A DNA stretch of 64,000 nt, taken from Bacteroidales bacterium (lineage in GTDB: Bacteria > Bacteroidota > Bacteroidia > Bacteroidales > F082). The notes beneath the pieces were generated by a model. The model did no database searches, was not told the origin of the DNA, and worked only from the letters and a program-made list of their open reading frames with translations. The translations under genes and the position numbers were made by a program. Position 1 is the stretch's first letter. Each line of letters begins with the position of its first letter. Location of the stretch: NCBI GenBank assembly GCA_017439405.1, contig JAFSJF010000078.1, forward strand, positions 1 to 64,000, in the 5' to 3' direction. This document shows positions 9,338 through 52,351 of the stretch, piece by piece.

Positions 9338-10983
9338 TGGAAAAGAAGAGAAAGGGATCAACCATGATGAACAACGAACAGGAAATAAGAGGAAGCTTCG
9401 CCGTCGGGGTGCAGAGTTTTGAATGGATCCGCGAACGCAAGGCACCGTATATCGACAAGACGAAGTACGTCTGGCAGATGGCGAGTTCCAACACCACCAG
9501 CTACTTCCTCAGCCGTCCGCGCAGGTTCGGCAAGAGCCTCTTGGTGGACACCTTGCGCTGCTACTTCGAGGGGCGCAAGGAACTCTTCGAGGGGCTGTAC
9601 ATCTACGACCGCGAGACGGAGTGGAGGAAACATCCCGTCATACGCCTCAACCTGAACAACGGCAAGTATTATGAAAAGGATGTGGTGCATGGAACCCTCA
9701 ATGCCATCCTTAGTCAGGAGGAGAAGAGGTTCGGCATTACCAACCCAGATGACCCCACCAACTATGACGCCCGCCTGACCAATATGATTCATGCGGCGTA
9801 CGAACAAACCGGCGAAAAGGTGGTCATCCTCGTTGACGAATACGATGCTCCCATGCTCGACAGCATCAACGACATTGAACTTCAGGATTATATACGCCAG
9901 CGTCTCCGCAACCTGTTCTCGCCGCTGAAGGCACAAGAGCAATATCTGCGCTTCGTCTTCCTGACCGGCATCTCCAAGTTCTCGCAACTGTCGGTGTTCA
10001 GCGAACTGAACAACCTGAAGCAAATCACCTTCGATTCCGACTACGAGGCCATCTGCGGCATCACCGAGGAGGAACTGCTGACCGAATGGAAGGAATACAT
10101 CGAGCTATTGGCGAAAAGTTTGGATGACATCTACAAGGATTGGGGAGTGCGCTATTCTTTCGACGACACGGTGGCCAAACTGAAAGAGATGTACGACGGC
10201 TACCATTTTTCCAACAGGATGACCGACATCTATTGCCCGTGGAGTCTCATTAAAGCCTTTTCGTTGGGCGACATCCAGAATTTCTGGTTCGCGACCGGCA
10301 CCCCGACCATGCTCATCGAATTGATGAAGAGACATCGTGCCAGTATGCAGCAATTTGAGGGCATTAGTGTCAAAATGGAGGTCTTCGACGCACCGACGGA
10401 ACGCATCAACGACCCGATTCCTGTGCTGTTCCAGAGCGGCTACCTCACGCTGAAGAAATACAATCCTATCACGCGAAAATACACCTTGGGCTTCCCTAAC
10501 GGCGAGGTGCGCGAAGGCTTCGCCAATTCGCTCTACAAATACTACATGGAGAGCTATGTGGGCAGCGACATTGCCTTGGGCAACGCCTTCCAAAACCTGT
10601 GTTCCAAGGAAATCACCATCGAGGAGTTCGTGGAATGCCTCCGCACCTGGTATGCGGGCATCCCCTACGCCATCACCGACAAGAACCAGAACGAGCAGCT
10701 CTACCAGTCGCTCATCTATGCCGCCCTCGTGGGCTTCGGCGCCGACGTGGAGGCCGAAAGCATGACCAGCGACGGACGCATGGACATCGCGCTGAAGCTG
10801 ACCGACACGATATACATCATCGAACTGAAATACGGCAAAAACGCCGACGAAGCCATAGACCAGATACTGAAGAAAGACTATGGCACGCGTTTTGCGGCCG
10901 ACAACCGACCCGTCATGGCCGTCGGGCTGAACATCAGCAACGACCGCCGCACCATCGACGACTGGAAAATAACCAAACTATGA
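9337..10983 (+). CDS. AAA-ATPase-like / PD-(D/E)XK nuclease-superfamily protein
   Basis: The protein joins an N-terminal AAA-ATPase-like domain (the family described as PF09820) to a C-terminal PD-(D/E)XK nuclease-superfamily domain (PF08011/DUF1703). The N-terminus has the family's GVQSFEWIRE and YIDKT motifs, a P-loop variant RPRRFGKS (G65-K66-S67) and a Walker B-like VVILVDEYDAP near residue 167. The C-terminal domain has D483 (GRMDIAL), then E496 and K498 (IIELKYG), the expected nuclease triad. Length (548 aa) is typical. The cellular role of this abundant Bacteroidota family is unknown; nuclease activity is only predicted. The ATG shares one base with the upstream stop, and its own TGA overlaps the giant gene's ATG (ATGA, 10980-10983). 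Internal ATGs at 9364 and 9367 are possible starts. Confidence 0.9.
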   Translation: MEKKRKGSTMMNNEQEIRGSFAVGVQSFEWIRERKAPYIDKTKYVWQMASSNTTSYFLSRPRRFGKSLLVDTLRCYFEGRKELFEGLYIYDRETEWRKHPVIRLNLNNGKYYEKDVVHGTLNAILSQEEKRFGITNPDDPTNYDARLTNMIHAAYEQTGEKVVILVDEYDAPMLDSINDIELQDYIRQRLRNLFSPLKAQEQYLRFVFLTGISKFSQLSVFSELNNLKQITFDSDYEAICGITEEELLTEWKEYIELLAKSLDDIYKDWGVRYSFDDTVAKLKEMYDGYHFSNRMTDIYCPWSLIKAFSLGDIQNFWFATGTPTMLIELMKRHRASMQQFEGISVKMEVFDAPTERINDPIPVLFQSGYLTLKKYNPITRKYTLGFPNGEVREGFANSLYKYYMESYVGSDIALGNAFQNLCSKEITIEEFVECLRTWYAGIPYAITDKNQNEQLYQSLIYAALVGFGADVEAESMTSDGRMDIALKLTDTIYIIELKYGKNADEAIDQILKKDYGTRFAADNRPVMAVGLNISNDRRTIDDWKITKL

Positions 10984-13900
10984 ATCTAACCATGACAAAA
11001 CATACAACCATGAGTACATATTTTGACAGGTATAGAAAACGAGTGAAAGCTTTTCTTGTTTCAGCCATGCTGCTGACAGGCGGCACGGCTTCGGCGCAAG
11101 TTGTCATCGAAGGCAACGTCTTTGGCGGCGGAAACATTGGACAAGTGACCAAGAGCACCACCGTCAACCTCAACGACGGCACCACCAAAGGCAGCGTCTA
11201 TGGCGGCGGCAAGGGCGTGGTGACCGAAGTAACGGCCGGTCTGGTGAAAGAAAACACCTTGGTCGAGATGAAGGGCGGCATCGTGGAGCGCAGCATCTAC
11301 GGCGGCGGCGAACTTGGCTCGGTGGGTACGTTTACGGACTATACCACTGTACCCTATACATCAGGTGCTCACGCAGGAGAAAGCGTGGACGTCCCTGCCA
11401 GTTGCGCCGAAAACACTGGCCTGACCAAGGTGATTGTCAATGGCGGAGAAGTGGGCGTTGCCGAGCATACCATCATGCCTTTTGCCGACAACAGCTATGA
11501 GGACGACTATGGCTATGTGTTCGCTTCGGGGCGTGGCGAGGCCGACTCCATCACTTACTACAAGGCCATCGCGCTCGGCGTGGCGGGCAGCGCCATCCTC
11601 GAAATCGGCGGCACGGCGTTCATCCATGGCTCCGTGTATGGCGGCAGTGAGGACGGCCTCGTGCTGGGCAACACGCGGGTGGCCATCAGCAGCGGACAGA
11701 TTGGTAACGGTTATTACGAAGAGAATGGTGTTAGTCATTGGGACGGCTTATATACTGAAGAACAATGGAATACCGCGATTGACAGTATCAAGAACGGCAC
11801 CTTTACCGATGCCGATGCGGCAGACTTCCACGAGTGCAGCCACTGGCCCTATCAGTCTCCTTACCAACCATTCGATCCCTATATTCTTGATGGCCAAGGC
11901 GATCCTATTGCGGGTAGCAACGGCTACACCACTTTCGGCAACGTGTTTGGCGGCGGCTCGGGCTATTATCCGATTGCTAATGGCATTTGGCGGCGCACGG
12001 CAGGGCAGGTGAATGGCAATTCGGAGGTTGTCGTCACGGGTGGACACATCCTCACCAGCATTTTTGGCGGCAACGAGATGACCGACGTTTTGGGCACGTC
12101 CACTGTGACGATGACCGGCGGCACCCTTGGCGTGCCGCGCACCTTGGCTGACATTGCGGCGCACCCTGTCACCTGCTACCTCTTTGGCGGCGGCAAGGGC
12201 GACCAGCGCACCGCTTTCAACACTTGGACCAACGTTCATCAGAATGTAGAGGTCAACATTGGCGGCAATGCCTTCTTCTTCGGCTCGGTGTTTGGCGGCG
12301 GCGAGGACGGCCATGTGCTTGGCAATGTGGTTATGAACATCAACAATTTGCCAGAAGGTGCCAATGATGCCTTCATCGGCACCTGGGGCTATTCCTACGT
12401 GGACGGCAACGTGTTCGGCGGCGGTCGTGGTTTCTCGGGCGAGGCCCTCTCGGCTGGTTCGGTGGGCGGCAATGTCACGCTCAACATTGGCGGCGGCACC
12501 ATGCTCGGCTCCATCTATGGCGGAGGTCGTTTGGCCTCGGTGGGTTTGCCATTCGTCTTGGATAGCAGTCCGCTCTACGGCCAAATGCAGGCGGGCGACG
12601 ACCACGGCGTGGTGCGCGTCAACATCACGGGCGGCACCATCGGCAACGACTATGAGTCGAAGCTGCATCTTGGCAACCCGGCCCTTGCCGAAGGACGCTC
12701 CTACGGCGGCAACGTCTTCGGCGGCTCGATGGGCCGTTTGACCCTCCTCGACGGTTCCGTCAACCCGCTGTGGCCCAACTTGGGCAAGGTGAAGAACACC
12801 TACGTCACGATTAGCGGTGACAACACCATCATCAAAGGCAACGTTTACGGTGGCTCTGAGCTGGGCACCTTGTCGTGCGGTACTGGAGAAACCGGGACGG
12901 GCAATGCCACGGTCACCATCAATGGCGGCACCATCTGGCGCAACGTGTTTGGCGGCAGCTTGGGCAGCGACAACACCACGATGCTTGCTCCTTTGGATGT
13001 GCATGAGACTGAGCCGTTCCAAGTCAACCCGATGCAACGCGCAGGCCGCATCGACGGCAACACCATCGTCAACATCAACGGCGGCTGGGTGAAGAAGAGC
13101 GTGTATGGCGGCGGCGAGTTGGCCTCGGTGGGCACCATTACGGAATTGCCGACCGAGCACGCCGAGTCGGGCGAGAACGCCCACCCTTTCAACCTCAGCT
13201 GGCCTTACGAGTTCAAGTATGCCGACGGCACCGGCACTTGCACGGTCAACGTCACGGGAGGCCGCGTCGGCCTCACCGGCAAGGACTTCATGGGCCCGTG
13301 GAATGATGCGGGAGTGCCTTTGGTTGACCTCGGTGAAGGCTATGTTCCCTACAATGAATCCACACCTAACCACAAGGAAGCCCTCAAGAAAGCCCGCGAA
13401 GACAACGGCGACGTGTTTGGCGGCGGCAAGGGCATTGCCGGCGACCGCTATGTGTTTGCCGACTGCGCCAACGCCAACAACACCATGGTCACTGTCGAAT
13501 ATGCGACTACAAATGCGGCCACACCTACGAACTATATGCCAAGTGATTGGGTTTACGGGTTCTATCCTACAGCGAGCGATTGGTCAACCTACACTGCCGC
13601 AAACATGGGCTGTCTCCCCGGCTCGCTCTACGGTGGCGGTGAAAACGGCCATGTGAACGACAACACCATCGTCACGCTCAACAATGGTCTTATCGGACAC
13701 AGCGTCTACGGCGGCGGCAAGGGAACCGATACCTACCAAACCTGGATATGGAAACCTGACACCCCGCAAACCGCTCAACCCGATTCGTTGGCCACCATCA
13801 CCAGCATCACCGCTGGCAAGGTGTTTGGCAACACTTACGTCAATATGAACGGCGGCTATGTGGTGCGCAACGTGTTTGGCGGCGGCAACCGCGCCTCGGT

Positions 13901-16900
13901 GGGCAAGGGCAACTATGCCAGCGGCCCCAACGACTTCACGCCCGACGGCTATGGCGAGCAATGGACGGCAGCCGACGATGAAGAAATGCAAGCGCTCTTC
14001 GACAACTCTGGCCATACCAATGTCAATATCTATGGCGGCACCATCGGCACCGTCAATGGCATGAAGGACGACATTCCTACGGGCAACGTGTTCGGCAGCA
14101 GCCGTGGCGAACCGGCACCCAACGTGCCTCAAACCCTAACGCCCCGCATCCACTACTATCCTGAGTTCTTCCTCGGTTACACCAACCATACCCATGTCAC
14201 CATCGGCGCAAGCGTAGGCGACACAGGTCCCCGCATCTACGGTTCGGTGTTTGGCGGCGGACAGGACGGCCATGTGCGCTGGGATGCCAACGTCACCGTC
14301 AACGCGGGCGAAATCGGCAACAAATACGATCCAACAAACACAGCTTTGTTTGCTTTGGTTGGTGATGACTTGACTAGTTACCAATGGAGAGGCCGTGGCA
14401 GTGTGTACGGCGCTGGCGCAGGCGTGGGCCAGTACACCGATGGCTCAGGCAGTCACTACAGTCGCAGCGCAGGCTCGGTGACCCAATTCACGACGGTCAC
14501 CATCAACGGCGGCACCATCCACCAGAACGTGTATGGCGGCGGCCCCTTGTCGTCGGTAGGCCCGCCGGCCATGGAGCAGGCAACAGTTCCTGACACCACC
14601 TATTCTCTTGCCAAGGTCAACATCTATAGCGCCATCGGCGACGAGGATGTGGTGAAAGCCACCGAGACCAACCCGGCGACCCAAGGCGGACGTTACGGCG
14701 GCAGCGTGTTCGGTGCGGGCCGTGGCATCTTCAATGGCCCATCGCCAGAATACGACGCATTCGCCACGACCATGTTTTCTGAGGTCAACCTATACGATGG
14801 CGCCAGCGTGCCCGGCGACGTGTACGGCGGCGGACAGTTGGGCCAAGTGAAGAACGACACCAAAGTCAACATGTATGGCGGCACGGTGGGCACGATTGGA
14901 TATGTCCGCAAGCACAACACTGCATCGGGTGCGGCATTAGACAGCATCGTCCACACTTCGGGCGGCGGCGTGTTTGGCGGTGGCGCCGGCTATCCCGTCA
15001 ATCGCGATGCGGCCTTGGTGAAAGGCAACACCGAAGTCAACATCAAAGGCGGCCATGTGCTGCTCAACGTGTATGGCGGCGGCGAGATGGCCAGCGTGGG
15101 CTTGAGAGACACCATCTTCGAAGCGGGAACCCAAACCATTAAGGACTTTGCACCGAAGGCCAACACGGGCTTGGCCAAGGTGACCGTCACCGGTGGCCAA
15201 GTGGGCCCTGCTCCGAGAGAGGGAGAGGGCTACAACATCCCCATCGGCCTGAACGGTGTTGACGGCTACGTGTTTGGCGGTGGCAAAGGCATCGCCAACG
15301 ACTATATCACCAATCCGGCACATCCTTATAGTGGGAGGTTTAATGACCTTGCCGATGTCAATAATACAGAGGTCACTGTTAACATACCCGCGTCAGCCGA
15401 TGCCAACACCAACCGCATTTGGGGCAGCATCTTCGGCGGCGCCGAAGACGGCCACGTGCTTGGCGATGCCCATACTTATTATATCAGTGGTCTCATGGGC
15501 ACTACTGGCACCACGAGCTACGACGGCAACATCTTCGGCGGCGGCCGCAACTTCAGCAAGGCCAACTACAACGCCGGTCGCGTGCGCGGCAACATCACCG
15601 TCGAGATGAGCGGCGGACAGATCTACGGCTCCATCTTTGGCGGCGGTCGTCTCGCCCTGACGGGTGTAGATTTGTACGGCAACATCCTCAGCGACGACGG
15701 CGATGACAAATACGGCAACACCTTCGTCAAGGTGAACGGCGGAACGATTGGCAACGACAACACCGTGCATGATGCCAGTTTGGGAGACATCCCCTTCATC
15801 AAGACGTTCACCGAGCACTCGATGGGCGACGTGTATGGCGGCGGCAAGGGCGACAAGGTGGGCATTACCGGCCATCCTCATGCCTCGGCACTGCTCGTCT
15901 CCTTGGTGAAGAACACCGAGGTGCTCATCACCGACTCCATTAAGGACGGCTCCGTAATCAGCAGCCCCAAGATCCTCGGCTCCGTCTTCGGCGGCGGCGA
16001 GGTGGCCACGGTGGGCCAATACACTTGGACTTTGGGCACAGACGCGATTAGCGACATCGCCATGGTGGAGGGCACAGGCAAGACCAAGGTCACCGTGACG
16101 GGCGGCCAAATCGGTCTCGACCGGATGGAGATGGACTACACCATAGCCGACGGCGAGGGCAACTTCAGCCTCAAGTACAACAGCGACCTCGGCCACGTCT
16201 TCGGCGGCGGCGAGGGACTCATTGACAACCCGGAAAAATCCGAGTATCTGCCCCTCATCAGCACTGTGGGTTACGGTAACAAGTCGCTCCTCGACCTCTT
16301 GGCCACCGTGGGCGAAACCGACGTGACCATCGGCAAGACGGAGCAAGGCTCGGCCTGGGTGAAAGGCACAGTGTATGGCGGCTCGATGGCCGGTCATGTG
16401 ATGCGCGACACCAAGGTGACCATCAGCGGCGGACAGATTGGCGCGGGCGACAATGGCACGACGGATGTGAAATATTCAGATCCCCAATTCTTCGACCCGC
16501 TTACCTCAACGACTTCATTTGATGCCAACGGCGACGTGACTTCAGCAGCGGCCTTGGCAGGATGCAACGCATGGGACTTTGACAAGCTCACCAACCGTCC
16601 GTTCAATTCGATTGCCATCAAAAACGATGATGACCAGGAAAACCATTCCAATTCCAAGCCTACCGATGGCAAGACCTGGTACGGCAAAGTGTTTGGCGGC
16701 GGCTCGGGTTTCTATCCTTACTACAAAGAAGAGGGTGGGCAATACAAGGCCTATTGGAACCGCGAGTCGGGCATTGTCTATGGAAACACGGAAGTGAACA
16801 TCACTGGTGGCCACATCCTCTCAGGAGTGTATGGCGGCTGCGAGACCACCGACGTGGGCAGTTTCACCTACGATCCAGCCGAAGGCGGCACCCACGTTTC

Positions 16901-22900: not shown

Positions 22901-25900
22901 CCCCAGCCTCTATGTCACCGTGCAAGAAAACGAGACCAGCAACATGAGCCTCCTCGACCTCGTTGCCACGGTGCAAAGCACCGAGGTGACCATCACCAAC
23001 GACACTACTGCCGACAACACGGTCTTCAAGCCTTGGGTGAAAGCCTCCGTGTTTGGCGGCTCCGAAAGCGGCCACGTGAGGGGCAACACCTTGGTGACCA
23101 TCAAGGGCGGCACCATCGGCGCGGGCGACAATGGCTCGGCGGATGTGTTATACACTGACAATGATTTCGCCGACCCCGGTTCGACCACTTGGTACACAAC
23201 GGCCCACTGGCCTTATGCAGAACCTTACACCCCCTTCGACCCAGAGCTTTTGAGCCAAGGCCAAACGCCAAAAGACGGCAGGTCGTGGTTCGGCAACGTG
23301 TTTGGCGGCGGTTCGGGCTGGTTCCCCTATGTCACGGGAGATGGTACGCCTGGCAATCCCTATCAATCCTATTGGAACGCGAACTCGGGCAAGGTGTGGG
23401 GCAACACCGAGGTCATCATCGAGGGCGGCCACATCTTGAACAACGTGTATGGCGCCAACGAATCGACCGACGTGGGCGGCACGGCCACCGTCAGGATGAG
23501 CGGCGGCACCGTCGGCGTGCCGCGCACTCCCGAACAAATCGAGCTGCAACCCACCACCAACAATGTCTTCGGCGGTGGCGCGGGCGACCCGCGTCGCGTC
23601 CTCAACGGCACCACCAACGTGGCTTCCACCGACGTGCAAATCACGGGTGGCACGGTCTATGGCTCCGTCTTCGGCGGCGCTGAGATGGGCCATGTGTTGG
23701 GCCATGCCAATGTGACCATCAACGAAGAGGGCGGCACCACCGTCATCGGCACCTCGGGCCTCTCGGGCTACGACGGCAACGTGTTCGGCGGCGGCAAGGG
23801 CGACGAGACCAACTATGACCCCACTCCCGAAGTCCCCGCTCAAGGCGAAACGCCGGCGGTTCCTGAGCAACCCAACTTCGCCTGCGGGCGCGTGGGCGGC
23901 AACGCGAGTGTCAACATGTCTGCCGGCACCGTCTTGGGCAACCTCTACGGCGGCGGCATGATTGCCCGCACCGGCGTGGGCGAAAACGGCGGCTTCGACA
24001 CCTATATTAGTGAAAATGAATATGACTCCATCAACCACGGCATGACCACGGTGACGCTCACCGGAGGCACCATCGGCAACAACGCCAACGACGGCCTCGA
24101 CTTGCTGATGAGCGGCAACGACCTTGGCAACGTCTACGGCGGTGGCCGTGGCAAATTGGACGAATTCATTGAAGACGACTATGGCCGTGTGGCCAATGCC
24201 AAAATCAGCATCAGTGGCAGCCCGCGCATCTATAGCTCCGTCTTCGGCGGCGGCCAGATGGCGAATGTCGGCCATTGGAACAACTACGATGATTGGTACA
24301 CGGCAAAAACCGGCACCACACATGTGACCATCACCGACACGCCAACCATTGGTTTGGAGAAAGAGTTCGACCATGACTATTCGATCGGTACGGGCAATGC
24401 TGAACCTAAATGGACGTGGTACGACACCATCAACGGCGTCAGAATGATCAGCCACACCTGCACGGGCAACGTGTTTGGCGGCGGCCAGGGCGACGTTGAG
24501 ATTGATGATGACGGAACAACCGTTATCGGCTTGGAACAAGGCCACTGCCGCACGACGATTGTCGACATCAGCGGCACGCCCACCATCATGAGCTCCGTCT
24601 TCGGCGGCTCCGAGGATGGCATAGTGTGGGGCGACACCAAGATAAAGATTGCTGGCGGCACCATCGGGAGGGAAAACAACATCCTGTCAGACAGCCTCGT
24701 GTTCGATGGAACCGCATGGAGCGTGAAACCCAATCATGCCACCTACAGCTACGGCAACGTCTTCGGCGGCAGCTATGGCAAGGATGCCATCATCCATTTG
24801 GGAGAAGACAATCAAGCCATTATGGACGTGGTCAATGCCAAGGCTGGTCTCATCCATGGCAATACCTACGTGGAAATCACGGGCGGCCAAATCTGCGGCA
24901 ACGTGTTCGGCGGCAGCAACTACGGCACGGTCGTAGGCAATGCCGAGGTCAAGGTGTCGGGTACAGCTGAGATTGGTCCGCTCGACTACACGGGCTTGAA
25001 CGCCTACGTATATGGCGGCGGCAAGGGCTTCCATGACGACCCAACCGAAGACCATACCGGATTGCGTAAGGCATACGCCAACGTTGCCAACACCAAGGTT
25101 ACCGTGGAGGCAGGCACGATTTACGGCTCCGTATTCGGTGGCGGCTCCGATGCCCATGTGCTTGGCAATGCCGAAGTCAACGTCACGGGCGGCACGCTCG
25201 GCACCACGGGCACCACCACATGGGACGGCAACATCTTCGGCGGCGGGCGCAACTTCATGGCCTCCAACCTCACCAACGGCAGGGTGGGCGGCAACGTCAC
25301 CGTCAACATGACGGGCGGCACCATGCTCGGCTCCATCTTCGGCGGCGGCCGCTTGGCCAACACCGGCATCGACGTGAACGGCGACATGCAAGAGGATGTG
25401 GCCGACGACCCCAACACGCCAGAGGATGAAACCGCGACCTTTGGCCATACCTACGTCTATGTCGGCAAGGACGCCGACGGCAACCAAGCCGGCAACATCC
25501 TCATCGGACACCATGCGGGCAGCTCTGTCGACCGCGTCGGCGGCAACGTGTATGGCGGCGCCAAGGGCGTTGCCGGTGCCCCGACATCCATCTATCCCGA
25601 GCTCGCCAAGGTGAAGGAAACCCATGTCACCATCGACGAGGCGTCGGGAATGCAGACCTTCATCATGGGCTCAGTGTTCGGCTCGGGCGAAGACGGCCAC
25701 GTGACCAAAGACACCTACGTCATGGTGAAGAACGGACAAATCGGCGGCGATGAGTACAATGCCAGCGACCCGCCTTTGTGCGACGACATCTTCCACGGCA
25801 ACGTGTATGGCGGCGGTCGCGGCTTGGACACCTATGATGTCACGGATCCCGTAACAGGGACGACAACACAACACTACAGCGAGACCGCCGGCGAGGTGTT

Positions 25901-28900
25901 TGGCAACACCAATGTCACCATCGCCGGAGGCCGCGTCGTCCGTCATGTGTATGGCGGCGGCAACTTGGCCTCGGTGGGCGACTACACCGAAACGCCCGAC
26001 GGCAGCGGCAACTACCACACCGGCCTCGCCACGGTGACCATCACCGGCGGACAGGTGGGCGTCGGAGCCAACAGCGACAACCCCAACGGCATGGTGTTTG
26101 GCGCTGGACGAGGCATGGCAGGCTCGGCCTACAAGAACCTCTCCATGGTGAGAAACACCAAGGTCACCATCACGGGCAATTCGCATGTGTTTGGCACCGT
26201 TTATGGTTCGGGCGAAGACGGCCATGTGCTCCATCGCACCGACATCCTCATCGGCAACGCCAGCATCGATGCCGATTGGGATGGAGCCACTGAAAACCAC
26301 GACGGCAGCTCCCTCGTCATAGGCACCAATGGCACGGTAGGCGTCGACGGCAACGTGTACGGCGCAGGCCGCGGCCTCGACAAGGACGGGTCGGGCAACT
26401 ACAGCCCGACGGCCGGCATCGTGGGCATCAGCACCAACATCGAGGTCAACAACGGAACGGTGTTAGGCTCGGTGTACGGCGGCGGCCGCATGGCTTCCGT
26501 GGGTCACGAGCAGGCCTTGGACACCCTCATTAACGGAACCCCCATCACCGCCAAGGTCCCGACTGACTTCGGCAAGGCCACCATCCACATCACGGGCAAT
26601 GCCATCATCGGCGACAACAACCCCGAAACCGAGAACGGCCATGTGTACGGCTCGGGCATGGGTGAGTTGGGCTACGCCGACCTGACCTATGTGTATAATA
26701 CCGATGTCACCGTCAACGGCAACGCCACGGTCAAAGGTTCGGTGTTCGGCGGTGGCGAAGTGGGCCACGTCAAGGGACACACCGTGACTGGCGACGAGGG
26801 CAACGTTGCATTCAACGGCGACACGCGCGTCACCATTGGCGGCAACAGCACTGTCGGGCTTTCTGGCATCCACGACAACACCGTCGGCAACGTCTTCGGC
26901 GGCGGACTTGGCAACAGCGAAAGCCAAACCGCAGGTGGCGTGGACGGCATCGCCCGCACCACCATCGACGGCGGCACGGTTTACAACAACGTGTTCGGCG
27001 GCGGCAACGTAGCTATCGTCAAGGGCGCGAGAGTCGTCAATATCGACAACGGCAGGGTCGAAGGCAGCGTCTTCGGCGGCAACAACACCGTGCCCGACTA
27101 CGACGACCAGCACCCGCTCGCCGACGCAGGCCACGGCAACCTGAAGACCGTAAACGTGCGCGGCGGCCAAATCTTGGGCAGTGTGTACGGCAACAGCTAC
27201 AACGCCCCCGAAGGCACCGCCCCCGAGCCTAACGATTGGCAGGATGACTACAATTACTGGTCGTCGTTCGTCAACATCACGGGCGGCACCATCGACGGCA
27301 ACGTATATGGCGCGGGCTATGGCGGCACCGTGAACGGCTCGGTGTGCATCAATGTGGGCCTCACTGCGGTCGAGAACGCCCCCACCTACACCACCCAGTC
27401 AGGCTCGGAGCAAGCCAACATCCACCGTTACGACGGCATTGACGGCGACCCTGCACGCGCCAAGCTCGTCATCGGCAGCAACATCTTCGGCGGGTCGTAC
27501 CAATACGAAAGCGGCAGCGGCGGCACTCCCGAATGGCAACACCACTACGACATCACGGGCTACAGCACCATGTTCATCGACGGCGATGGCTACGAGACCA
27601 CTTCCACCGACCCGAATACCTCCCTGTACATGAACCTCGGCGGCGGCATCTACGGCTCGGGCAACTTCTGCGAGTCGGGAGAAAAGGGTCGCGAAATCAT
27701 CCTCAGGAAATACGGCACGCGCAATCCAGATGGCGACCCAACAGCAGAGATGACCGCTGTTTCCCGCACGCTGACCACCCTCCAGCGCGGCGGTATCGTC
27801 TTGTTCGACAACGCCAACATCCACTTCAGCGGCGCCCCCGACATCAGCGGCCAATACACCTCCCGCAGCTTCGGCCTCCTGCAAACGGACTTGAGCCTCT
27901 ATGTGGCCAACGGCAGCGGCATCGTGCTCGGCACCGCAGGAACGCCGGCCTACATGGACTCCATCAAGGAAATCAGGAGCCTCTACCTGAAGGACGGCAT
28001 AGGCACTTCCTACAACCAATTGGGCGCAAGCAACAACGGCAACTGGGAAATGGTGGGCATCAAGGGCAGCGACAACAAACTGTATCGCATCAAGGAGAGC
28101 GAACAAACCGAGTTGTCCACCCTCCAAGAGAACGTCATCCTCTTCAACGACGACTCGCGCCTCTGGGTGCGCTATAAAGACCAAAGCGCGGGCAAGGTCA
28201 TGTACGGCCAACTGTTCGGCTTCTTCCGCATGAGGGCCGACAACTTCACGCCCGAAGGCATGGAGAGCTTCGCCTACGCCCGTCCCAAGCTGACGGCCAA
28301 TGTCAACCCCTTGCCCAAGCCTGACGGCTCTGGCAACTATCCCAACCAAAACGAAGGCGACGGCGGCTTCCTGAGCTATGATGATCTCAACACCTTTACG
28401 ACTAATGGTCAAACGGTGTTAGGCTATTCCTATACGACCGACGGCAACGACGGCGGCACGGGCTACACAAGCACGAAGCAATACCCCTACTACAACATCA
28501 GCAGGCTCTCCAAGAACGGCGAGCGGGCCGACCTGGAGGAGTATCGCGAATGGGTGCTGCCGAAGCTGGAAGGCCACATGTGGTATGTGGACGGCACGAG
28601 AGGCTGGGGTCGCGACGAAACCCACGCAAATGGCTGGGGCGACTATCCCGACAAGCCCAAGCTGACCCTCACCGGCATCCGTACAGAAGGCGAAAACACT
28701 ATTGGAACGGGCGTCTGCAATGACAATGTGAATAACACAGAAGGCTACACCTTCAACGCCGCCAAAGACATCATCTTCGTGGTGGGTGCCGTCAAAGCCT
28801 CGCTTGAACAAGAGTACCTGAACCTCTCGGCAACCTATCCCTTGAAGCTGTTCCGCTATCCGGGCGGCCATAAGATGAGCAACAACCAAACGGACGTAGG

Positions 28901-31900
28901 CGGTGGCTCAGAACCAGCAGATCCGTCATCCTACAATGGCTTAGGCGTAAGTGTGACCGCAGGTCCTGGCGTCAACACTGGCGCGATGGTCGATGCCGAC
29001 AGGTCCGACAACTTCGTGATGGAGAACGTCATCGTGGATGGCCTCTACACCTACGAATCCACCGAGAAAGACCAGTATCAGATTCCCGACAGCTATACCA
29101 CGACGAAGCTGGATGTGAGCGAGCCGTTGGTGGTCACCGCTGCCAGCGCCCAGCTCACGCTGAAGGGCGGCACCATCCTGCAACGCGGCTACAACAACAC
29201 CGACGCTTCGGGCACTTACGACGGACATAAGAACTACTACCTGAATCCCGACTTCAAACTGACGAGTGTACACAATGGCGGAGCCCTGTTCGTTGACTCA
29301 ACGGCCTCCGTCAAGGTGGAAGGCTTGTTGACCATCAGTGGCAACTTGCAGAAGAACGGCACAGGCACCGTGGCAAGCAACGTGTATCTGCCCACCTTCA
29401 ACAAACACCTCGAAATCAGCGATGCCTTGAACGAAGCCACCCGCATCGGCATCACCAACCCCGTAAGGAACAAGCAGCCAAACTATGCGCAAAACACCTT
29501 GTCGCCCGTGGCAGTAGGTACGCGAAGCGGAAAGAGCATGGTAGGTTCCGTGGAGATTAACAACAGCGCCATCGATGCCAATAATGCATGGGTAAACCAG
29601 AACTTCGGCGACGACCTCAACTGGTTCTTCGTCAATGGCCACGACCCCGCCAACGGCATCCGTCGCACCACTTACTACAATGCACTCACTGACGAGAACA
29701 CCCTCTACCTCGGCTGGACGTGGGCCAACGTGGTGCGCGAGCAGCCTGCAGGCTTCGACGTAGCCAACATCGACTCGGAGGAAGACCTGGCCTGGCTCAT
29801 CAGCACAGTGAACGGCCTGAACGGGCAAACGGCAAACGCAAGTCAAACGGTGAGCCTCAAGGCCAAGCTCGACCTGCAGCAGTACGTGTGGGTGCCTATA
29901 GGCTCTCCCGCGAACCCCTTCTCCGGCACCTTCGACGGCCAAGGCCACACCATCAAGAACCTCGACATCGCCTATACCGGCAAGGGCGACCGCGTCTATG
30001 AGTACAGCAACTTCGGCCTGTTCGGCGACGTGAACAACGGCACCGTCAACCGCACCTTCGTGGTCAGCGGCTACATCAAGCCGGTGGGCAGCGTCAGCAT
30101 CGGCGGCTTGGCGGCCCTCGTGGAAGGCGCCAACAGCGTCATCTCCAACAGCGAGGCTGCCGTGGAAATGGAAATCCCCGACCATACCGGCTCAGGCATA
30201 GCCTCTGGCGGCTTGGTGGGACAGCTCCGTGGCGGCGAAGTCCACTCCTCGATGGCCATGCCGACCATCAATGCCGGCAACTACCCTGTCGTTGGCGGCT
30301 TGGTGGGCCTCACCCAATCAGGCACCCAGCTCAACAACAGCTTCGCCTATCCCAAGTTCAAAGTCGCAAGTTCCACTTCCACCGTCAAAGTCGGCGGCTT
30401 GGCGGGAAGCAACGGCGGCTCGCTGAAGAACAGCTACGTCAGGCTGCAAACGGGCAACTCCCACTTGACGACGAGCAACTACGGCAACCTCGCCCACACC
30501 AACACAGGCATCGTGGACTACTGCTACGGCTTCAGAGACGACAAGGACGCGAGCGACAATGCCTATCCGTTGGCCGTGGCCCAAGGGACGAACTTCTCGA
30601 ATTGCCACTACTTCGCGCCCGTGGCCTCGTCAGACAACTACGGGTACATGTACATGGACAACAAGCTCTACGACAGGAACGGCGACGAGTGGGTGAAGGC
30701 CGACACCACCCTGTTCCTCAAGCTCAACCGCAACATCGCCAGCACTTCAATCCTCAACGACCCCGAAAGCACGCACAAGTACGCCCGCTGGACCCGCCCG
30801 ACGCTGGACGGCATCAACGGCGACTATCCGGTGCTGATGCTCGACAACTACGATGGCAGCAACAACGTCGGCTTGGGCGGCTTGCGCAGCGTGGCCTCCA
30901 TCACGGGCAGCCCTGCCTTGCAGTATGGCGGTCCGGTGCGCGATGCAAGCTCGACCAAAGGCTCCGGCGAGCTTGACGAAGCCATCGGCAGGATGACCGC
31001 TTCCACCGACGAGCTTCTCGTCTATGGCGACATCACCGTTGCCCCGACCCAGCCGGATGACTGGGCGAGTTTCGCGGGAGGCAAGATCGCCATCCATGAG
31101 GATGCCTCCATCCTGTTGCCTGGCACCTTGGGTGCGGATGGCGCCAACGTCTATGTCGGCGTCACCTTCGACAACACCTCGCGCAAGGCTACGGATGCCT
31201 ACGGCAATCGACTCTACCGCGACTGGCACATGTTCAGCTCGCCGTTGGCCAACGCGCCGTTGGGGATGGACTATACGTTAGGTGGCACGTCTGAGGATCA
31301 GAACCTTAATGGCGATTACGCCAATGACAAGTACGTTTACAAGCCCGTTGATTCTGAGTGGGGGTCTCCTTACTCGGATGCAAGTTTGCCCATTTTCGGA
31401 TTCACTGCCGCTTCCGCGAACGACGGTTACTTCCCGTCCCAAACGGAAGGCTACACCAAACCCACTGGCGAGTTGTATGGCTATCCATACGACTTCTACA
31501 CCTGGTACGAGCCCGACTGGCAATGGATCAACTTCAAGCGCAACGGTGTAAGCCACTGGCACTTTGACGAGACTCCCGGCACCACCGAACACAATCACAT
31601 CGACTACCAAGCCCATTTTGGTAGCGATCCAAACGTTTCATCTGATGATGCCGAAATGAATGTGAACGAAACCACCCTCGTCCCCGGCAAGGGCTACATG
31701 ATGGCCATCGACGACAACACCTACATGCAGTCGCACGGACGGCTCAATAGTGGCGAACTCAGCTTCGCGCTGACGAACTCGACAGGCAGCCAGAGTTGGA
31801 CTTGGGTACCGGAGTCCTTTGGCTATTACGGCAACAACTTCGTAGGCAACCCGTATCACGCCTACTTGGACTTCGATGAGTTTGGCAAAGCCATAGCATC

Positions 31901-32786
31901 TGGCGGAAACGGCTTCTCCAGCTATTACACGTATGATGCCGATCGTGCCAAGGAAGGCATTAACTACCTCATTTATGCCGAAGGCGGTTCGGCAAGCGGT
32001 TATTACGGATCGCGCTACCTGCACCCGCACCAAGGCTTCTTCTTGCAGACGGATGCCAACAAGTCTATTACGTTCCTGAACAACAATGTCAGCAACTTTG
32101 TCGTGACGCGTTCCGATGCGGATAACTCACCCTTCCGCGACTGGAGGCCGGCCTATCCGTTGGTCAACCTGTTTGCATACGACAGCGAGGGCCGCGGAGA
32201 CGTGGTGGTCATCGAGTTCAACCGTCCCGAGAACGGTGGCGGCGAGAAGGCGAAGACATTGCGCACCGGCAACCACCTGATCTATGCCCACAACGGCGAC
32301 ACCGACTATGGCGCCTTCTTCGCCGTGGAGGGCACTGACCGGGTGCCCGTCCGCTTCCTGTCGCTCGAATCGGAGCAGAAGCCCTACACGCTGCGTTGGG
32401 ATACGCACAACGGCTTCTTCAACAGCCTCTACCTGATCGACAACCTGCTGGGCATCACCTACGACATGCTGGAAAACGACAGCTACACGTTTGTCGGCTC
32501 GAAGGACGACTATGTGTCGCGCTTCGTCATCGTCTTCAACGTGACCGACTTGGAGGAGCACAGCGACCACAACCTGAAGACCTTCGCCTTCTACGACGGA
32601 AGCGCGTGGGTGGTGAACGGCACGGGCCGCCTCGAAGTCATCGACGCGACGGGGCGCATCCTTTACGCCGAAGACCTGCACAACGAGCAGAACCACGTCA
32701 ACCTGAACCGCTACGCCAAGGGTGTCTATATGCTGCGCCTCTGGAACAGCGACAAGGCACGTACCCAGAAAATCGTCTTACATTAA
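10980..32786 (+). CDS. Giant V(Y/F)GGG-repeat T9SS cargo protein (about 7260 aa)
   Basis: One uninterrupted frame encodes a protein of 7268 aa from the ATG at 10980 (7264 from 10992, 7258 from 11010). The signal peptide ends GGTASAQ near 11100. The frame is open further upstream, but that part lies inside the AAA gene. Residues about 45-5570 are V(Y/F)GGG repeats with long-period duplications. Residues about 5570-6260 form a non-repeat region. About 6260-6500 is a beta-helix part with FSGTFDGQGHTI and GLUG-like GGLVG motifs. About 6670-7190 looks like beta-sandwich material. The last 70 residues are a T9SS type A sorting domain (VIDATGRIL, YAKGVYMLRLW, end KIVLH). Known T9SS biology predicts export to the surface and cleavage of this tail. 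Adhesin, matrix or S-layer-like roles are guesses. Confidence 0.9.
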   Translation: MNLTMTKHTTMSTYFDRYRKRVKAFLVSAMLLTGGTASAQVVIEGNVFGGGNIGQVTKSTTVNLNDGTTKGSVYGGGKGVVTEVTAGLVKENTLVEMKGGIVERSIYGGGELGSVGTFTDYTTVPYTSGAHAGESVDVPASCAENTGLTKVIVNGGEVGVAEHTIMPFADNSYEDDYGYVFASGRGEADSITYYKAIALGVAGSAILEIGGTAFIHGSVYGGSEDGLVLGNTRVAISSGQIGNGYYEENGVSHWDGLYTEEQWNTAIDSIKNGTFTDADAADFHECSHWPYQSPYQPFDPYILDGQGDPIAGSNGYTTFGNVFGGGSGYYPIANGIWRRTAGQVNGNSEVVVTGGHILTSIFGGNEMTDVLGTSTVTMTGGTLGVPRTLADIAAHPVTCYLFGGGKGDQRTAFNTWTNVHQNVEVNIGGNAFFFGSVFGGGEDGHVLGNVVMNINNLPEGANDAFIGTWGYSYVDGNVFGGGRGFSGEALSAGSVGGNVTLNIGGGTMLGSIYGGGRLASVGLPFVLDSSPLYGQMQAGDDHGVVRVNITGGTIGNDYESKLHLGNPALAEGRSYGGNVFGGSMGRLTLLDGSVNPLWPNLGKVKNTYVTISGDNTIIKGNVYGGSELGTLSCGTGETGTGNATVTINGGTIWRNVFGGSLGSDNTTMLAPLDVHETEPFQVNPMQRAGRIDGNTIVNINGGWVKKSVYGGGELASVGTITELPTEHAESGENAHPFNLSWPYEFKYADGTGTCTVNVTGGRVGLTGKDFMGPWNDAGVPLVDLGEGYVPYNESTPNHKEALKKAREDNGDVFGGGKGIAGDRYVFADCANANNTMVTVEYATTNAATPTNYMPSDWVYGFYPTASDWSTYTAANMGCLPGSLYGGGENGHVNDNTIVTLNNGLIGHSVYGGGKGTDTYQTWIWKPDTPQTAQPDSLATITSITAGKVFGNTYVNMNGGYVVRNVFGGGNRASVGKGNYASGPNDFTPDGYGEQWTAADDEEMQALFDNSGHTNVNIYGGTIGTVNGMKDDIPTGNVFGSSRGEPAPNVPQTLTPRIHYYPEFFLGYTNHTHVTIGASVGDTGPRIYGSVFGGGQDGHVRWDANVTVNAGEIGNKYDPTNTALFALVGDDLTSYQWRGRGSVYGAGAGVGQYTDGSGSHYSRSAGSVTQFTTVTINGGTIHQNVYGGGPLSSVGPPAMEQATVPDTTYSLAKVNIYSAIGDEDVVKATETNPATQGGRYGGSVFGAGRGIFNGPSPEYDAFATTMFSEVNLYDGASVPGDVYGGGQLGQVKNDTKVNMYGGTVGTIGYVRKHNTASGAALDSIVHTSGGGVFGGGAGYPVNRDAALVKGNTEVNIKGGHVLLNVYGGGEMASVGLRDTIFEAGTQTIKDFAPKANTGLAKVTVTGGQVGPAPREGEGYNIPIGLNGVDGYVFGGGKGIANDYITNPAHPYSGRFNDLADVNNTEVTVNIPASADANTNRIWGSIFGGAEDGHVLGDAHTYYISGLMGTTGTTSYDGNIFGGGRNFSKANYNAGRVRGNITVEMSGGQIYGSIFGGGRLALTGVDLYGNILSDDGDDKYGNTFVKVNGGTIGNDNTVHDASLGDIPFIKTFTEHSMGDVYGGGKGDKVGITGHPHASALLVSLVKNTEVLITDSIKDGSVISSPKILGSVFGGGEVATVGQYTWTLGTDAISDIAMVEGTGKTKVTVTGGQIGLDRMEMDYTIADGEGNFSLKYNSDLGHVFGGGEGLIDNPEKSEYLPLISTVGYGNKSLLDLLATVGETDVTIGKTEQGSAWVKGTVYGGSMAGHVMRDTKVTISGGQIGAGDNGTTDVKYSDPQFFDPLTSTTSFDANGDVTSAAALAGCNAWDFDKLTNRPFNSIAIKNDDDQENHSNSKPTDGKTWYGKVFGGGSGFYPYYKEEGGQYKAYWNRESGIVYGNTEVNITGGHILSGVYGGCETTDVGSFTYDPAEGGTHVSGGTATVKMSGGTLGVPRTFAQIESHPIKCSLFGAGQGDPRTDFNTWTNVKETVVQITGGIVYGSVFGGGEDGHVFGDVQLTIGGDAVIGTTGRSSFDGNVFGGGRGFSGEALTAGVVAGNAKTTIEGGTMLGSVYGGGRMASVGTHLVPPEHDNYGKMQAGDGHGKITVNITGGTIGNDYESKYHYTDHTTGGNVFAGGMGRIEELDGTTTNPKWFMSGRVKNTTLNISQTSADNKTTIKGNVYGGGELGIVGGEAGQTSEDHSTHVNISGGTLWRDVYGGGHGSDNTTSTAEVQTGVFIKPVQLAARVFGNTNINISGGWIKKSVYGGGEFANVGRITDSVRHVQTDDPTSTNDQVHPFYLSWPFKFTYADNTGKANINVTGGRIGITGKDFMGPWSPTTGNPYDPATGDDLASAAIKATRLDNGDIYGGGKGKAGSTYIVAHIGNVRETEITINDATTSATPTTYKPSDWISAFQPNLEDWTDYGTLGCVSGAVYGGAEDGHVKDDTKITIEKGLVGHAVYGGGKGKGKYNGEYVLTSGKVYGNTEIEIKGGYVVRSVFGGGNLASVGKGNYLGYGETTTDPELLALAASSGQTNIKVYGGTLGMLNPSKPSDVFKDNIPYGSVFGGCRGQVVQDADEVTDDLFGFVNNTSVTIGETATAVTPGSTIYPRIYGSVHGGAQDGHVRRSTDVTVNSGEIGVAYVNASTAATTMGISDLDNANWTDRGNVFGGGSGKGFYDEDVENSYNKMAGSVIETTAVKIKGGLIHRNVYGGGNLATVFGLADDGGTANEKVSVSVSDEAKVGLQSDICNDNDFVYGGSVFGAGKGFASDSYTDFCNVQNTDVTVKGGYVYGDVYGGGENGHVIKHTDVKIQDNASIGVLADNNGGTTSFDGNVFGGGWGSGIKVDDDTDFAIYKHCGRVGGNTNVTMTGGTLQGTIFGGGRLALVGVDVNGDFTPYASANDSVNYGLATINVSAGSIGNSNPDKLLNGSDESVGDIFGSGKGDLENYEDILAGRVANTKINITGNPRIYGAVFGGGEMASIGYWQEVDGKAKFHEYSGTAVVTVGGTAEIGTDKEFLYGYAHGTGDDAPSYWTVLDDDYKLIHTCTGNVFGGAQGDVDTISPHWVSMGRSRMAYVTINDNPTIKSRVFGGAEQGTVAGDTRVTVNGGTIGTLANTDESGQEYYFGGVYGGGYGSHNPIFNGTETVFDHTPIVNDSTNATHLVAGNLWTANYLAGRVYGDTHVDILGGTIKGDVFGGASFAYVGAYGTNPKGNATVNIGAVSGRDVSYTGNASFFGSVYGANNHSGTPYGNVTVNVYQTAHTTENECPEIPEQYTTDEEILAWLGTQPYAVENFAIQSVYGGSNQADYTPAEGKKASVHVYQCQENTIREVYGGSNAADIGSPSAGYKTDANVIIDGGRIYRVFGGGNGEVRPSDIYGKANTNINGGLINQVFGGSNNNGIIDEINLNVNYGGSCPLYIEDVFSGGNAALVLGDVITTVECCNASYGNFYGGTQLANIYGDVTVNIFGATYNNLFAGSKGQSADDSTVPSTPAIPADIKRFPDVSDEVLNNPELWPSTDPASEEYRVYQYLYDNLHATPSVDLRGHGGNVTLNIFGGTINEAAYGGSDENGNIEGKIQVNVFNTSGTCDLNLMNLYGAGRNTAYTPNYAIDEGEERLTPEINVIHGTVKGSVFGGGKGATATTTASPVVNMGYDADLMGDASTGLVKHLFDTIVAHNTGWVAPTSYADIVKGEVYGGGELATVSGNTLVNLFQGTVGNDGKSGTDGNIFGGGKGSESSLTAGRVEGNTVIDMRAGTVMGNIYGGGRLAQTGIDENGAMQDGANHGYTKIMVKGGTVGNKDEIEEFTAFSMGNIYGGGKGLLDTDTPSSNSPEKSLLLGLTKNTTIEISDTIGNDTHVYGIVLGGGEIANVGQYTLTKSGDDITNIAVAEGKATVKISGGIIGGDRSQMRPDTDAGSPWLKYNDDLGYVYGGGEGWSDNPSLYVTVQENETSNMSLLDLVATVQSTEVTITNDTTADNTVFKPWVKASVFGGSESGHVRGNTLVTIKGGTIGAGDNGSADVLYTDNDFADPGSTTWYTTAHWPYAEPYTPFDPELLSQGQTPKDGRSWFGNVFGGGSGWFPYVTGDGTPGNPYQSYWNANSGKVWGNTEVIIEGGHILNNVYGANESTDVGGTATVRMSGGTVGVPRTPEQIELQPTTNNVFGGGAGDPRRVLNGTTNVASTDVQITGGTVYGSVFGGAEMGHVLGHANVTINEEGGTTVIGTSGLSGYDGNVFGGGKGDETNYDPTPEVPAQGETPAVPEQPNFACGRVGGNASVNMSAGTVLGNLYGGGMIARTGVGENGGFDTYISENEYDSINHGMTTVTLTGGTIGNNANDGLDLLMSGNDLGNVYGGGRGKLDEFIEDDYGRVANAKISISGSPRIYSSVFGGGQMANVGHWNNYDDWYTAKTGTTHVTITDTPTIGLEKEFDHDYSIGTGNAEPKWTWYDTINGVRMISHTCTGNVFGGGQGDVEIDDDGTTVIGLEQGHCRTTIVDISGTPTIMSSVFGGSEDGIVWGDTKIKIAGGTIGRENNILSDSLVFDGTAWSVKPNHATYSYGNVFGGSYGKDAIIHLGEDNQAIMDVVNAKAGLIHGNTYVEITGGQICGNVFGGSNYGTVVGNAEVKVSGTAEIGPLDYTGLNAYVYGGGKGFHDDPTEDHTGLRKAYANVANTKVTVEAGTIYGSVFGGGSDAHVLGNAEVNVTGGTLGTTGTTTWDGNIFGGGRNFMASNLTNGRVGGNVTVNMTGGTMLGSIFGGGRLANTGIDVNGDMQEDVADDPNTPEDETATFGHTYVYVGKDADGNQAGNILIGHHAGSSVDRVGGNVYGGAKGVAGAPTSIYPELAKVKETHVTIDEASGMQTFIMGSVFGSGEDGHVTKDTYVMVKNGQIGGDEYNASDPPLCDDIFHGNVYGGGRGLDTYDVTDPVTGTTTQHYSETAGEVFGNTNVTIAGGRVVRHVYGGGNLASVGDYTETPDGSGNYHTGLATVTITGGQVGVGANSDNPNGMVFGAGRGMAGSAYKNLSMVRNTKVTITGNSHVFGTVYGSGEDGHVLHRTDILIGNASIDADWDGATENHDGSSLVIGTNGTVGVDGNVYGAGRGLDKDGSGNYSPTAGIVGISTNIEVNNGTVLGSVYGGGRMASVGHEQALDTLINGTPITAKVPTDFGKATIHITGNAIIGDNNPETENGHVYGSGMGELGYADLTYVYNTDVTVNGNATVKGSVFGGGEVGHVKGHTVTGDEGNVAFNGDTRVTIGGNSTVGLSGIHDNTVGNVFGGGLGNSESQTAGGVDGIARTTIDGGTVYNNVFGGGNVAIVKGARVVNIDNGRVEGSVFGGNNTVPDYDDQHPLADAGHGNLKTVNVRGGQILGSVYGNSYNAPEGTAPEPNDWQDDYNYWSSFVNITGGTIDGNVYGAGYGGTVNGSVCINVGLTAVENAPTYTTQSGSEQANIHRYDGIDGDPARAKLVIGSNIFGGSYQYESGSGGTPEWQHHYDITGYSTMFIDGDGYETTSTDPNTSLYMNLGGGIYGSGNFCESGEKGREIILRKYGTRNPDGDPTAEMTAVSRTLTTLQRGGIVLFDNANIHFSGAPDISGQYTSRSFGLLQTDLSLYVANGSGIVLGTAGTPAYMDSIKEIRSLYLKDGIGTSYNQLGASNNGNWEMVGIKGSDNKLYRIKESEQTELSTLQENVILFNDDSRLWVRYKDQSAGKVMYGQLFGFFRMRADNFTPEGMESFAYARPKLTANVNPLPKPDGSGNYPNQNEGDGGFLSYDDLNTFTTNGQTVLGYSYTTDGNDGGTGYTSTKQYPYYNISRLSKNGERADLEEYREWVLPKLEGHMWYVDGTRGWGRDETHANGWGDYPDKPKLTLTGIRTEGENTIGTGVCNDNVNNTEGYTFNAAKDIIFVVGAVKASLEQEYLNLSATYPLKLFRYPGGHKMSNNQTDVGGGSEPADPSSYNGLGVSVTAGPGVNTGAMVDADRSDNFVMENVIVDGLYTYESTEKDQYQIPDSYTTTKLDVSEPLVVTAASAQLTLKGGTILQRGYNNTDASGTYDGHKNYYLNPDFKLTSVHNGGALFVDSTASVKVEGLLTISGNLQKNGTGTVASNVYLPTFNKHLEISDALNEATRIGITNPVRNKQPNYAQNTLSPVAVGTRSGKSMVGSVEINNSAIDANNAWVNQNFGDDLNWFFVNGHDPANGIRRTTYYNALTDENTLYLGWTWANVVREQPAGFDVANIDSEEDLAWLISTVNGLNGQTANASQTVSLKAKLDLQQYVWVPIGSPANPFSGTFDGQGHTIKNLDIAYTGKGDRVYEYSNFGLFGDVNNGTVNRTFVVSGYIKPVGSVSIGGLAALVEGANSVISNSEAAVEMEIPDHTGSGIASGGLVGQLRGGEVHSSMAMPTINAGNYPVVGGLVGLTQSGTQLNNSFAYPKFKVASSTSTVKVGGLAGSNGGSLKNSYVRLQTGNSHLTTSNYGNLAHTNTGIVDYCYGFRDDKDASDNAYPLAVAQGTNFSNCHYFAPVASSDNYGYMYMDNKLYDRNGDEWVKADTTLFLKLNRNIASTSILNDPESTHKYARWTRPTLDGINGDYPVLMLDNYDGSNNVGLGGLRSVASITGSPALQYGGPVRDASSTKGSGELDEAIGRMTASTDELLVYGDITVAPTQPDDWASFAGGKIAIHEDASILLPGTLGADGANVYVGVTFDNTSRKATDAYGNRLYRDWHMFSSPLANAPLGMDYTLGGTSEDQNLNGDYANDKYVYKPVDSEWGSPYSDASLPIFGFTAASANDGYFPSQTEGYTKPTGELYGYPYDFYTWYEPDWQWINFKRNGVSHWHFDETPGTTEHNHIDYQAHFGSDPNVSSDDAEMNVNETTLVPGKGYMMAIDDNTYMQSHGRLNSGELSFALTNSTGSQSWTWVPESFGYYGNNFVGNPYHAYLDFDEFGKAIASGGNGFSSYYTYDADRAKEGINYLIYAEGGSASGYYGSRYLHPHQGFFLQTDANKSITFLNNNVSNFVVTRSDADNSPFRDWRPAYPLVNLFAYDSEGRGDVVVIEFNRPENGGGEKAKTLRTGNHLIYAHNGDTDYGAFFAVEGTDRVPVRFLSLESEQKPYTLRWDTHNGFFNSLYLIDNLLGITYDMLENDSYTFVGSKDDYVSRFVIVFNVTDLEEHSDHNLKTFAFYDGSAWVVNGTGRLEVIDATGRILYAEDLHNEQNHVNLNRYAKGVYMLRLWNSDKARTQKIVLH
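11700..26500 (+). repeat. Long-period duplications within the giant gene
   Basis: Landmark motifs recur in the same order. The GVPRT motif codons start at 12129, 16941 and 23514. TGKDFMGPW is at 13275 and 18066. GTIGNDYESK is near 12630 and 17430. VVRNVFGGGN or VVRSVFGGGN plus ASVGKGNY is near 13860 and 18560. The first two copies are about 4.7-4.8 kb (about 1600 residues) apart; the third is 6.6 kb further on and less complete. This points to segmental duplication on top of the short repeat. Confidence 0.75.
20640..22040 (+). repeat. Shared beta-helix module, copy 4
   Basis: Fourth copy, in the middle of the giant: YGANNHSGTPYGNV, VYQTAHT, YGGSNQADYTP, CQENTIREVYGGSNAADI, GGRIYRVFGGGNGE, FGGSNNNGII, CPLY, FYGGTQLANIYGDV, FAGSKG, GGNVTLNIFGGTI, GGSDENGNIEGKI, YTP, PEINVIHGTVKGSVFGGG, ASPVV. 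It links this gene to paralogues 1 and 2. Boundaries are approximate. Confidence 0.7.
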
Positions 32787-52327: not shown

Positions 52328-52351
52328 TTCAATCTACAACAATTGAAACAA

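Follow-up and report, generated by a model that had tools for sequence, protein, structure and literature searches.

A giant repeat gene and its neighbours

The window, i.e., the whole stretch of 64,000 nucleotides of Bacteroidales DNA that was analysed, carries three neighbouring genes of a common repeat family on its forward strand (components A, B and C), with a sorting domain encoded on C only. Component A (221..3433; 1,070 aa) has a signal-peptide-like start, carries V(Y/F)GGG repeats over its whole length, lacks a sorting domain and has its C-end 24 aa past the last motif; a Pfam search of the protein gave no match. Component B (3626..9337; 1,903 aa), likewise without a sorting domain, starts with a head of approximately 470 aa, which is followed by repeats and a C-end 22 aa past the last motif. 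The head (3728..5035) is 40-53% identical in 8 relatives, and for the one pair tested dN is 0.37 versus a saturated dS of 2.7. It includes an FN3 domain (near 4775-4972) that scores 23.9 bits versus a Pfam cut-off of 25 and is supported by PDB matches and by a structural model, which is poor in the first 180 aa and Ig/FN3-like in the remainder. A lectin assignment for this head was dropped because of those poorly modelled 180 aa; a ricin-type lectin (PF14200) gave no Pfam match in the head at E <= 1.

Between B and C lies a gene for a 548-aa AAA-ATPase_like and PDDEXK_9 protein (9337..10983, forward strand), which overlaps B by 1 base and C by 4 and is probably an insertion that is not part of the fibre proposed below. 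It resembles a mobile-type gene, and the genome contains 12 PF09820 matches. AAA/PDDEXK-related genes also occur in two related loci, directly ahead of the repeat genes that were counted in L065, and at L063's far edge. Further along the window, 39263-39883 encodes a small protein that by eye resembles a REP-associated transposase. One sequence cluster of such related genes is present in 6 loci, and its members lie between the repeat genes in L033, L041 and L064; the window's gene does not belong to this sequence cluster.

Component C (10980..32786, forward strand) encodes a protein of 7,268 aa and approximately 763 kDa. The sequence-only reading of this DNA had reported a single unbroken gene of approximately 22 kb, and this is borne out: one stop-free frame of 7,268 codons begins with the ATG at 10980 and is closed by a stop codon whose last base is 32786. 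Given the base composition of the gene itself, the log10 probability of a stop-free run of this length is approximately -104. Moreover, dN/dS is approximately 0.18-0.5 over 392-401 codons (one repeat stretch of component C compared with four relatives), indicating that the frame is under selection as a protein. The N-terminus is basic and then hydrophobic and looks, by eye, like the signal peptide that had been proposed (10980..11096, ending LLTGGTASA/Q); candidate starts are 10980, 10992 or 11010. Stops or assembly collapse within the repeats were looked for, and neither was seen. The gene has no exact repeats of at least 40 bp and its repeat copies have diverged, which makes collapse in a short-read assembly unlikely; collapse was rejected on the former ground and because a relative is present on one 3.56-Mb contig.

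The C-terminus of component C bears a T9SS type A sorting domain

Profile searches place a T9SS type A sorting domain (TIGR04183, PF18962) at 32619..32780, as had been read from the sequence. TIGR04183 scores 28.9 bits, above its curated cut-off of 23, while PF18962 reaches 29 bits versus a cut-off of 27 in a six-frame search and stays below it, at 23.1 and 23.8 bits, in scans of fragments. TIGR04183 is the only match of component C in the NCBIfam scan, which gave none to the type B domain TIGR04131. The tail that precedes and includes the sorting domain (27657..32783; 1,709 aa) matches the last repeat genes of relatives, near full length in L055, L056, L063 and L074 (L113) and partially in others; a PDB sequence search with the tail gave no match. 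Its last approximately 960 aa recur in a 4,019-codon T9SS protein elsewhere in the window's own genome (L124; G000 contig C131), which has no V(Y/F)GGG array. The 3.5-Mb genome has 145 T9SS sorting-domain matches at E <= 0.001, a large surface and secreted repertoire. The window also encodes the T9SS translocon SprA/Sov (52343..59803, forward strand; SprA_N 1.1e-180), approximately 20 kb downstream of component C; by eye, the gene immediately before it looks like ruvA, and those after it include gcvH and a TonB-like gene.

Three quarters of component C is a repeat array that is predicted to form a beta-helix

The repeat region of component C (11097..27659) is built of V(Y/F)GGG units, approximately 101 by the strict definition. 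Matches to [VI][YF]G[GAS][GASNC], the strict form of the motif, number 101 and span residues 47 to 5557, i.e., 76% of the protein, in agreement with the three quarters estimated before; 200 shuffled versions of component C average 1.4 motifs and never have more than 6. A core repeat profile built from loci other than the window, with the consensus NTTVTIGGGTIIGNVYGGGNGASVGGNTTVTI, detects 80 units in component C (40 with i-E <0.01), 18 in A and 16 in B, and none in shuffled component C. Windowed self-BLASTP revealed duplicated blocks within the array, with offsets of approximately 1,590 and 2,230 aa and 40-56% identity in successive windows. For the offset of approximately 1,590 aa, the first copy spans residues 313-1343 (11916..15008, forward strand) and the second residues 1895-2882 (16662..19625, forward strand).

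A search for a well-characterised family that would account for the array found none: no Pfam or NCBIfam family covers the repeats of A, B and C, bar one chance-level NCBIfam row for A. The GLUG-type region that had been suggested stays below the threshold of its family, PF07581 scoring 12.3 bits versus a Pfam cut-off of 20.5. A second profile, A1, represents one three-unit segment type, so that genome counts based on it are minimum figures for the repeat family at large; it found no match in a PDB sequence search, and PHROGs gave nothing for 8 of 8 A1 segments. With a 411-aa repeat stretch as tblastn query, no match was obtained in collections of phage (50,697 records) and plasmids (72,556 records). 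A mobile origin of the repeats was rejected on account of these phage, plasmid and PHROGs results.

A 411-aa stretch of component C (12252..13484, forward strand) was modelled by AlphaFold2 as a beta-helix (pLDDT 85.2, pTM 0.89). The predicted structure has stacked parallel strands in 8 coils of approximately 51 aa, and each V(Y/F)GGG unit forms one coil in which the strands are regularly arranged. For this one stretch, the model supports the earlier guess of a beta-helix and suggests that the repeats of component C adopt this fold. The rise of a beta-helix is 0.48 nm per coil, so 80-110 coils would give component C a rod of roughly 40-50 nm. The predicted coil count thus does not bear out a rod described as extraordinarily long.

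The structures nearest to the model in VIA-align include pectate lyases (1jta, 3zsc and 1vbl) and Caldicellulosiruptor tapirins (4wa0 and 6n2c), and superpositions of the model on pectate lyases and on 3p4g, a beta-helical antifreeze protein, have an rmsd of 2.6-3.8 over 155-200 aa. These neighbours, together with the largely rumen host labels of the family (see below), would suit a substrate-binding or enzymatic scaffold, akin to a polysaccharide lyase, that acts on plant polysaccharides at the cell surface. However, no lyase family matches component C in Pfam or NCBIfam, the structural match is to a common fold, and a position table of 3,048 repeat units contains no strongly conserved acidic or basic position. 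We therefore consider such a scaffold quite improbable.

Relatives are mostly from ruminants and include larger proteins

Within a genome collection of 84,980 species, 338 pattern matches included 249 relatives, of which the 80 best, distributed over 73 loci, were retained. Judged by title, 56 of these 73 best loci are from the rumen or from ruminants: 34 carry the label RUG, which we take to stand for rumen uncultured genome, 20 are RGIG titles that name an organ of the ruminant gut and 2 are from red deer. The other 17 have no host in the title (12 SRR, 3 UBA, 1 RUI and the isolate Prevotella sp. tc2-28), and no title among the 73, which are the closest relatives only, names a non-ruminant host. 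In the window's genus, most likely a rumen-type one of the Bacteroidales, profile A1 matches 15 of 36 genomes, the window's own included (E <= 1e-3), compared to 0 of 24 genomes from other families of the order (E <= 1e-3). An even draw of the order gave 3 of 393, again with the window's own included (E <= 1e-8), and an even draw of the phylum gave 1 of 395, which is the window's own genome (E <= 1e-6). The genus of tc2-28 has matches in 73 of 299 genomes, already known ones included (E <= 1e-6). Related clusters are present in many Bacteroidales and Prevotella genomes. Both the mostly ruminant-labelled nature of the family and the membership of component C in a multi-gene cluster were missed by the sequence-only reading.

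Frame lengths come from the listed matches of 50 loci, out of 56 selected from the 73, and whole frames from flanks of 17 of the 73, which were a non-random choice made for length and sorting-domain ends. The open frames among the matches listed reach 11,866 (L046), 8,962 (L041) and 8,468 (L064) codons; smaller members exist as well, with listed frames from 842 codons in the genus of tc2-28. The largest, from a water buffalo reticulum MAG (L046; L102), has 220 strict motifs and a signal-peptide-like start and lacks a sorting domain. The size of component C had been placed near the extreme of known T9SS cargo. This is right insofar as its approximately 763 kDa exceeds the 669 kDa that the available text of PMC9127263 gives for SprB, the gliding adhesin of Flavobacterium johnsoniae; however, a repeat protein with a sorting domain reaches 7,955 codons in L074, and component C is therefore not the largest of its kind. 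One Prevotella-type cluster (L122) lies on a contig of 3,556,614 bases (G733 contig C1), where an 8,245-codon partner that ends on its last coil adjoins a 3,986-codon base. Upstream of this base are three genes that by eye are lipoprotein-like, one of which is an Mfa_like_1 fimbrillin (1.4e-19), and a link between the giant repeat genes and fimbriae is possible.

Clusters with a detected sorting domain have exactly one, on the last repeat gene

A sorting-domain profile, for which 8 such domains were taken from other proteins in the window's genome, matches 13 of 96 complete repeat-gene C-ends at E <= 1.3e-4. These belong to 13 clusters (the window, L029, L052, L053, L055, L056, L059, L063, L065, L067, L070, L074 and L083), and in all 13 exactly one sorting domain is present, on the last of the repeat genes in the stretches seen (31 in total). 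Genes were counted as repeat genes when they had six or more motifs, which excludes upstream headed genes with few motifs in 17 loci; among the 31 are 3 that are cut at the edge (L052, L056 and L074) and 1 piece of a broken gene (L063). Given one domain per cluster, the chance of its being always last is 1 in 55,296 (3x3x3x4x2^9), a figure that is not an independent test, as the clusters share ancestry. An unconditioned placement of 13 domains among 31 genes (1 in 206 million) was set aside because the clusters had been picked for having the domain. The Prevotella-type clusters L033, L036, L040, L041 and L064 are arranged with a gene of 4,000 aa first, the T9SS-like end of which scores weakly (E 0.04-1.9; 13.5 bits for TIGR04183 in L036, versus a cut-off of 23), and a second gene of 7,500-9,000 aa that ends on a coil.

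The ends of the chains are also regular. In 59 of the 96 C-ends, no more than 60 aa follow the last motif, and for 47 of these 59 short tails the length is 19-26 aa, compared to 17.8% expected from random cuts. Components A and B likewise finish on their final coil. At the other end, the lead before the first coil has a median of 7 aa after the signal peptide (n = 32), an estimate that follows a rule of thumb and includes some misplaced signal-peptide sites. Tail and lead combined have a median of 32 aa, while the spacing within chains is most commonly 34 aa, with a second peak at 25-26 (7,183 spacings). These figures fit end-to-end stacking of chains, and also fit chains that simply have their starts and stops at coil boundaries.

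Component C could act alone as a giant adhesin or rod, with A and B as independent neighbouring paralogues that have jobs of their own: repeat genes commonly duplicate in tandem, the duplicated blocks inside component C show how easily this happens, component C has all that is needed for T9SS export, and some headed partners of relatives finish in a non-repeat domain. Against this, in each of the 13 clusters where a sorting domain was detected it is single and belongs to the last repeat gene, the partners have been retained, the C-ends are near constant in 47 of 59 short-tailed proteins, and the gaps between cluster genes are mostly short or replaced by overlaps. On this evidence we regard a component C that works by itself as possible, if rather doubtful. 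Alternatively, A and B might be broken or split pieces of larger genes, or assembly errors, so that only C works. The B-type gene of L063 (with L111) is indeed in pieces of about 482, 1,525 and 214 aa, from a frameshift or as a decayed copy, the window's genome is an assembly of 159 contigs with 5.2% contamination, and the AAA/PDDEXK gene intervenes between B and C. However, the conservation of the B head in relatives, with dN far below dS in the pair compared, the near-constant short C-ends, and the coil-ended 8,245-codon partner next to its base on a single contig in L122 all argue against debris, which makes this explanation highly improbable.

Partners of relatives that lack a sorting domain often bear N-terminal heads. 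CHB_HEX_C_1 and Fn3_assoc score over their cut-offs in 5 of the 9 heads scanned, and the other 4 have FN3, above cut-off in L029 only. Ricin-B-type lectin matches are present in the heads L104 (L041's gene), L105 (L064), L107 (L033) and that of L096 (strain tc2-28), and are over the cut-off in L104 only (36.6 versus 25.6 bits). In L053, L059, L067, L070 and L083 it is the sorting-domain gene itself that is headed, and L029, L052, L055, L065 and L074 have a headed partner whose C-end is a non-repeat domain; a uniform order of tip, shaft and base is therefore doubtful.

A possible multi-subunit surface fibre

Our preferred reading is that the cluster encodes a multi-subunit beta-helical fibre or adhesin at the cell surface, with component C as its T9SS-anchored base. 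We give this a probability of approximately 0.5; that the subunits stack and share their export is our inference. Component C would be exported by Sec and then fold into a beta-helix rod of the length estimated above, before passing the outer membrane via SprA and remaining attached by its C-terminal part. According to the available text of PMC7463736, SprA has an inner diameter of approximately 7 nm and accepts folded cargo, and a folded beta-helix could thus pass lengthwise. End-to-end stacking would involve the N-terminal coil of component C and both partners, all of them uncapped at these ends, and would give a fibre with C as base, A as shaft and B as tip that presents the head. Such a fibre would most likely attach the cell to plant particles, to other cells or to a host surface in the rumen.

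A more elaborate form of the proposed fibre can be envisaged, in which two to four gene products of like, open-ended beta-helix coils stack in the periplasm into one solenoid that is exported whole, through the wide pore of SprA, via the single sorting domain of the base; we consider this unlikely. Equally tentative is the accompanying part of this scheme, by which the subunits without a sorting signal would be T9SS passengers and rumen Bacteroidales and Prevotella would assemble surface fibres whose proteins can be as long as about 11,900 residues. The rods could instead lie side by side as a sheath or an S-layer-like coat. Component C has no S-layer family match in Pfam or NCBIfam, and the presence of one extremely long anchored gene per cluster suggests few copies, which makes a coat very unlikely.

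If the fibre reading is correct, gut bacteria of farm animals devote 20-40 kb to surface fibres for which the libraries searched hold no family model, and these fibres may govern the grip on plant fibre. They would also provide naturally occurring beta-helices of great length whose ends are open and may interlock. The pattern of one signal per cluster raises a testable question: can the T9SS export partners that lack a sorting domain?

Comparison with known systems

Precedents exist for T9SS cargo, for beta-helix adhesins and for giant surface proteins encoded in clusters. A literature search found no description of V(Y/F)GGG repeats or of giant rumen repeat proteins, within a scope that left most subscription journals and a separate bioRxiv set outside. 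In the texts so covered, we found no account of the repeat family, of its spread in rumen Bacteroidales and Prevotella, or of one signalled base with unsignalled partners.

Among solved structures, the pectate lyases and the antifreeze protein 3p4g share the beta-helix with the model of component C, but are short single domains with no sequence family match. The Caldicellulosiruptor tapirins, of which 4wa0 is titled a possible adhesin, are among the closest structures as well; they are far smaller than component C, are unmatched in the sequence search with the A1 profile and have a weak structural score. A parallel in genome organisation is offered by Giant1-5 of Apilactobacillus kunkeei, which, in the available text of PMC12863079, are encoded by consecutive genes, are extracellular, range from 3,000 to 8,000 aa and have a beta-solenoid domain in 4 of 5 cases. 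These are proteins of lactic acid bacteria in which the solenoid is an N-terminal domain, whereas in component C it would make up most of the protein, and a division of labour in sorting signals is not mentioned in that part of the source. SprB is, like component C, a giant surface cargo of the T9SS; the accessible portion of PMC7463736 classes it as a type B CTD protein, while component C is of type A. With T9SS type A cargo (TIGR04183/PF18962), component C shares a signal-peptide-like start, a C-terminal sorting domain and a SprA gene in the same window; it differs from such cargo in its great length, in repeats that fall outside the searched families and in being encoded together with partners that have no sorting signal.
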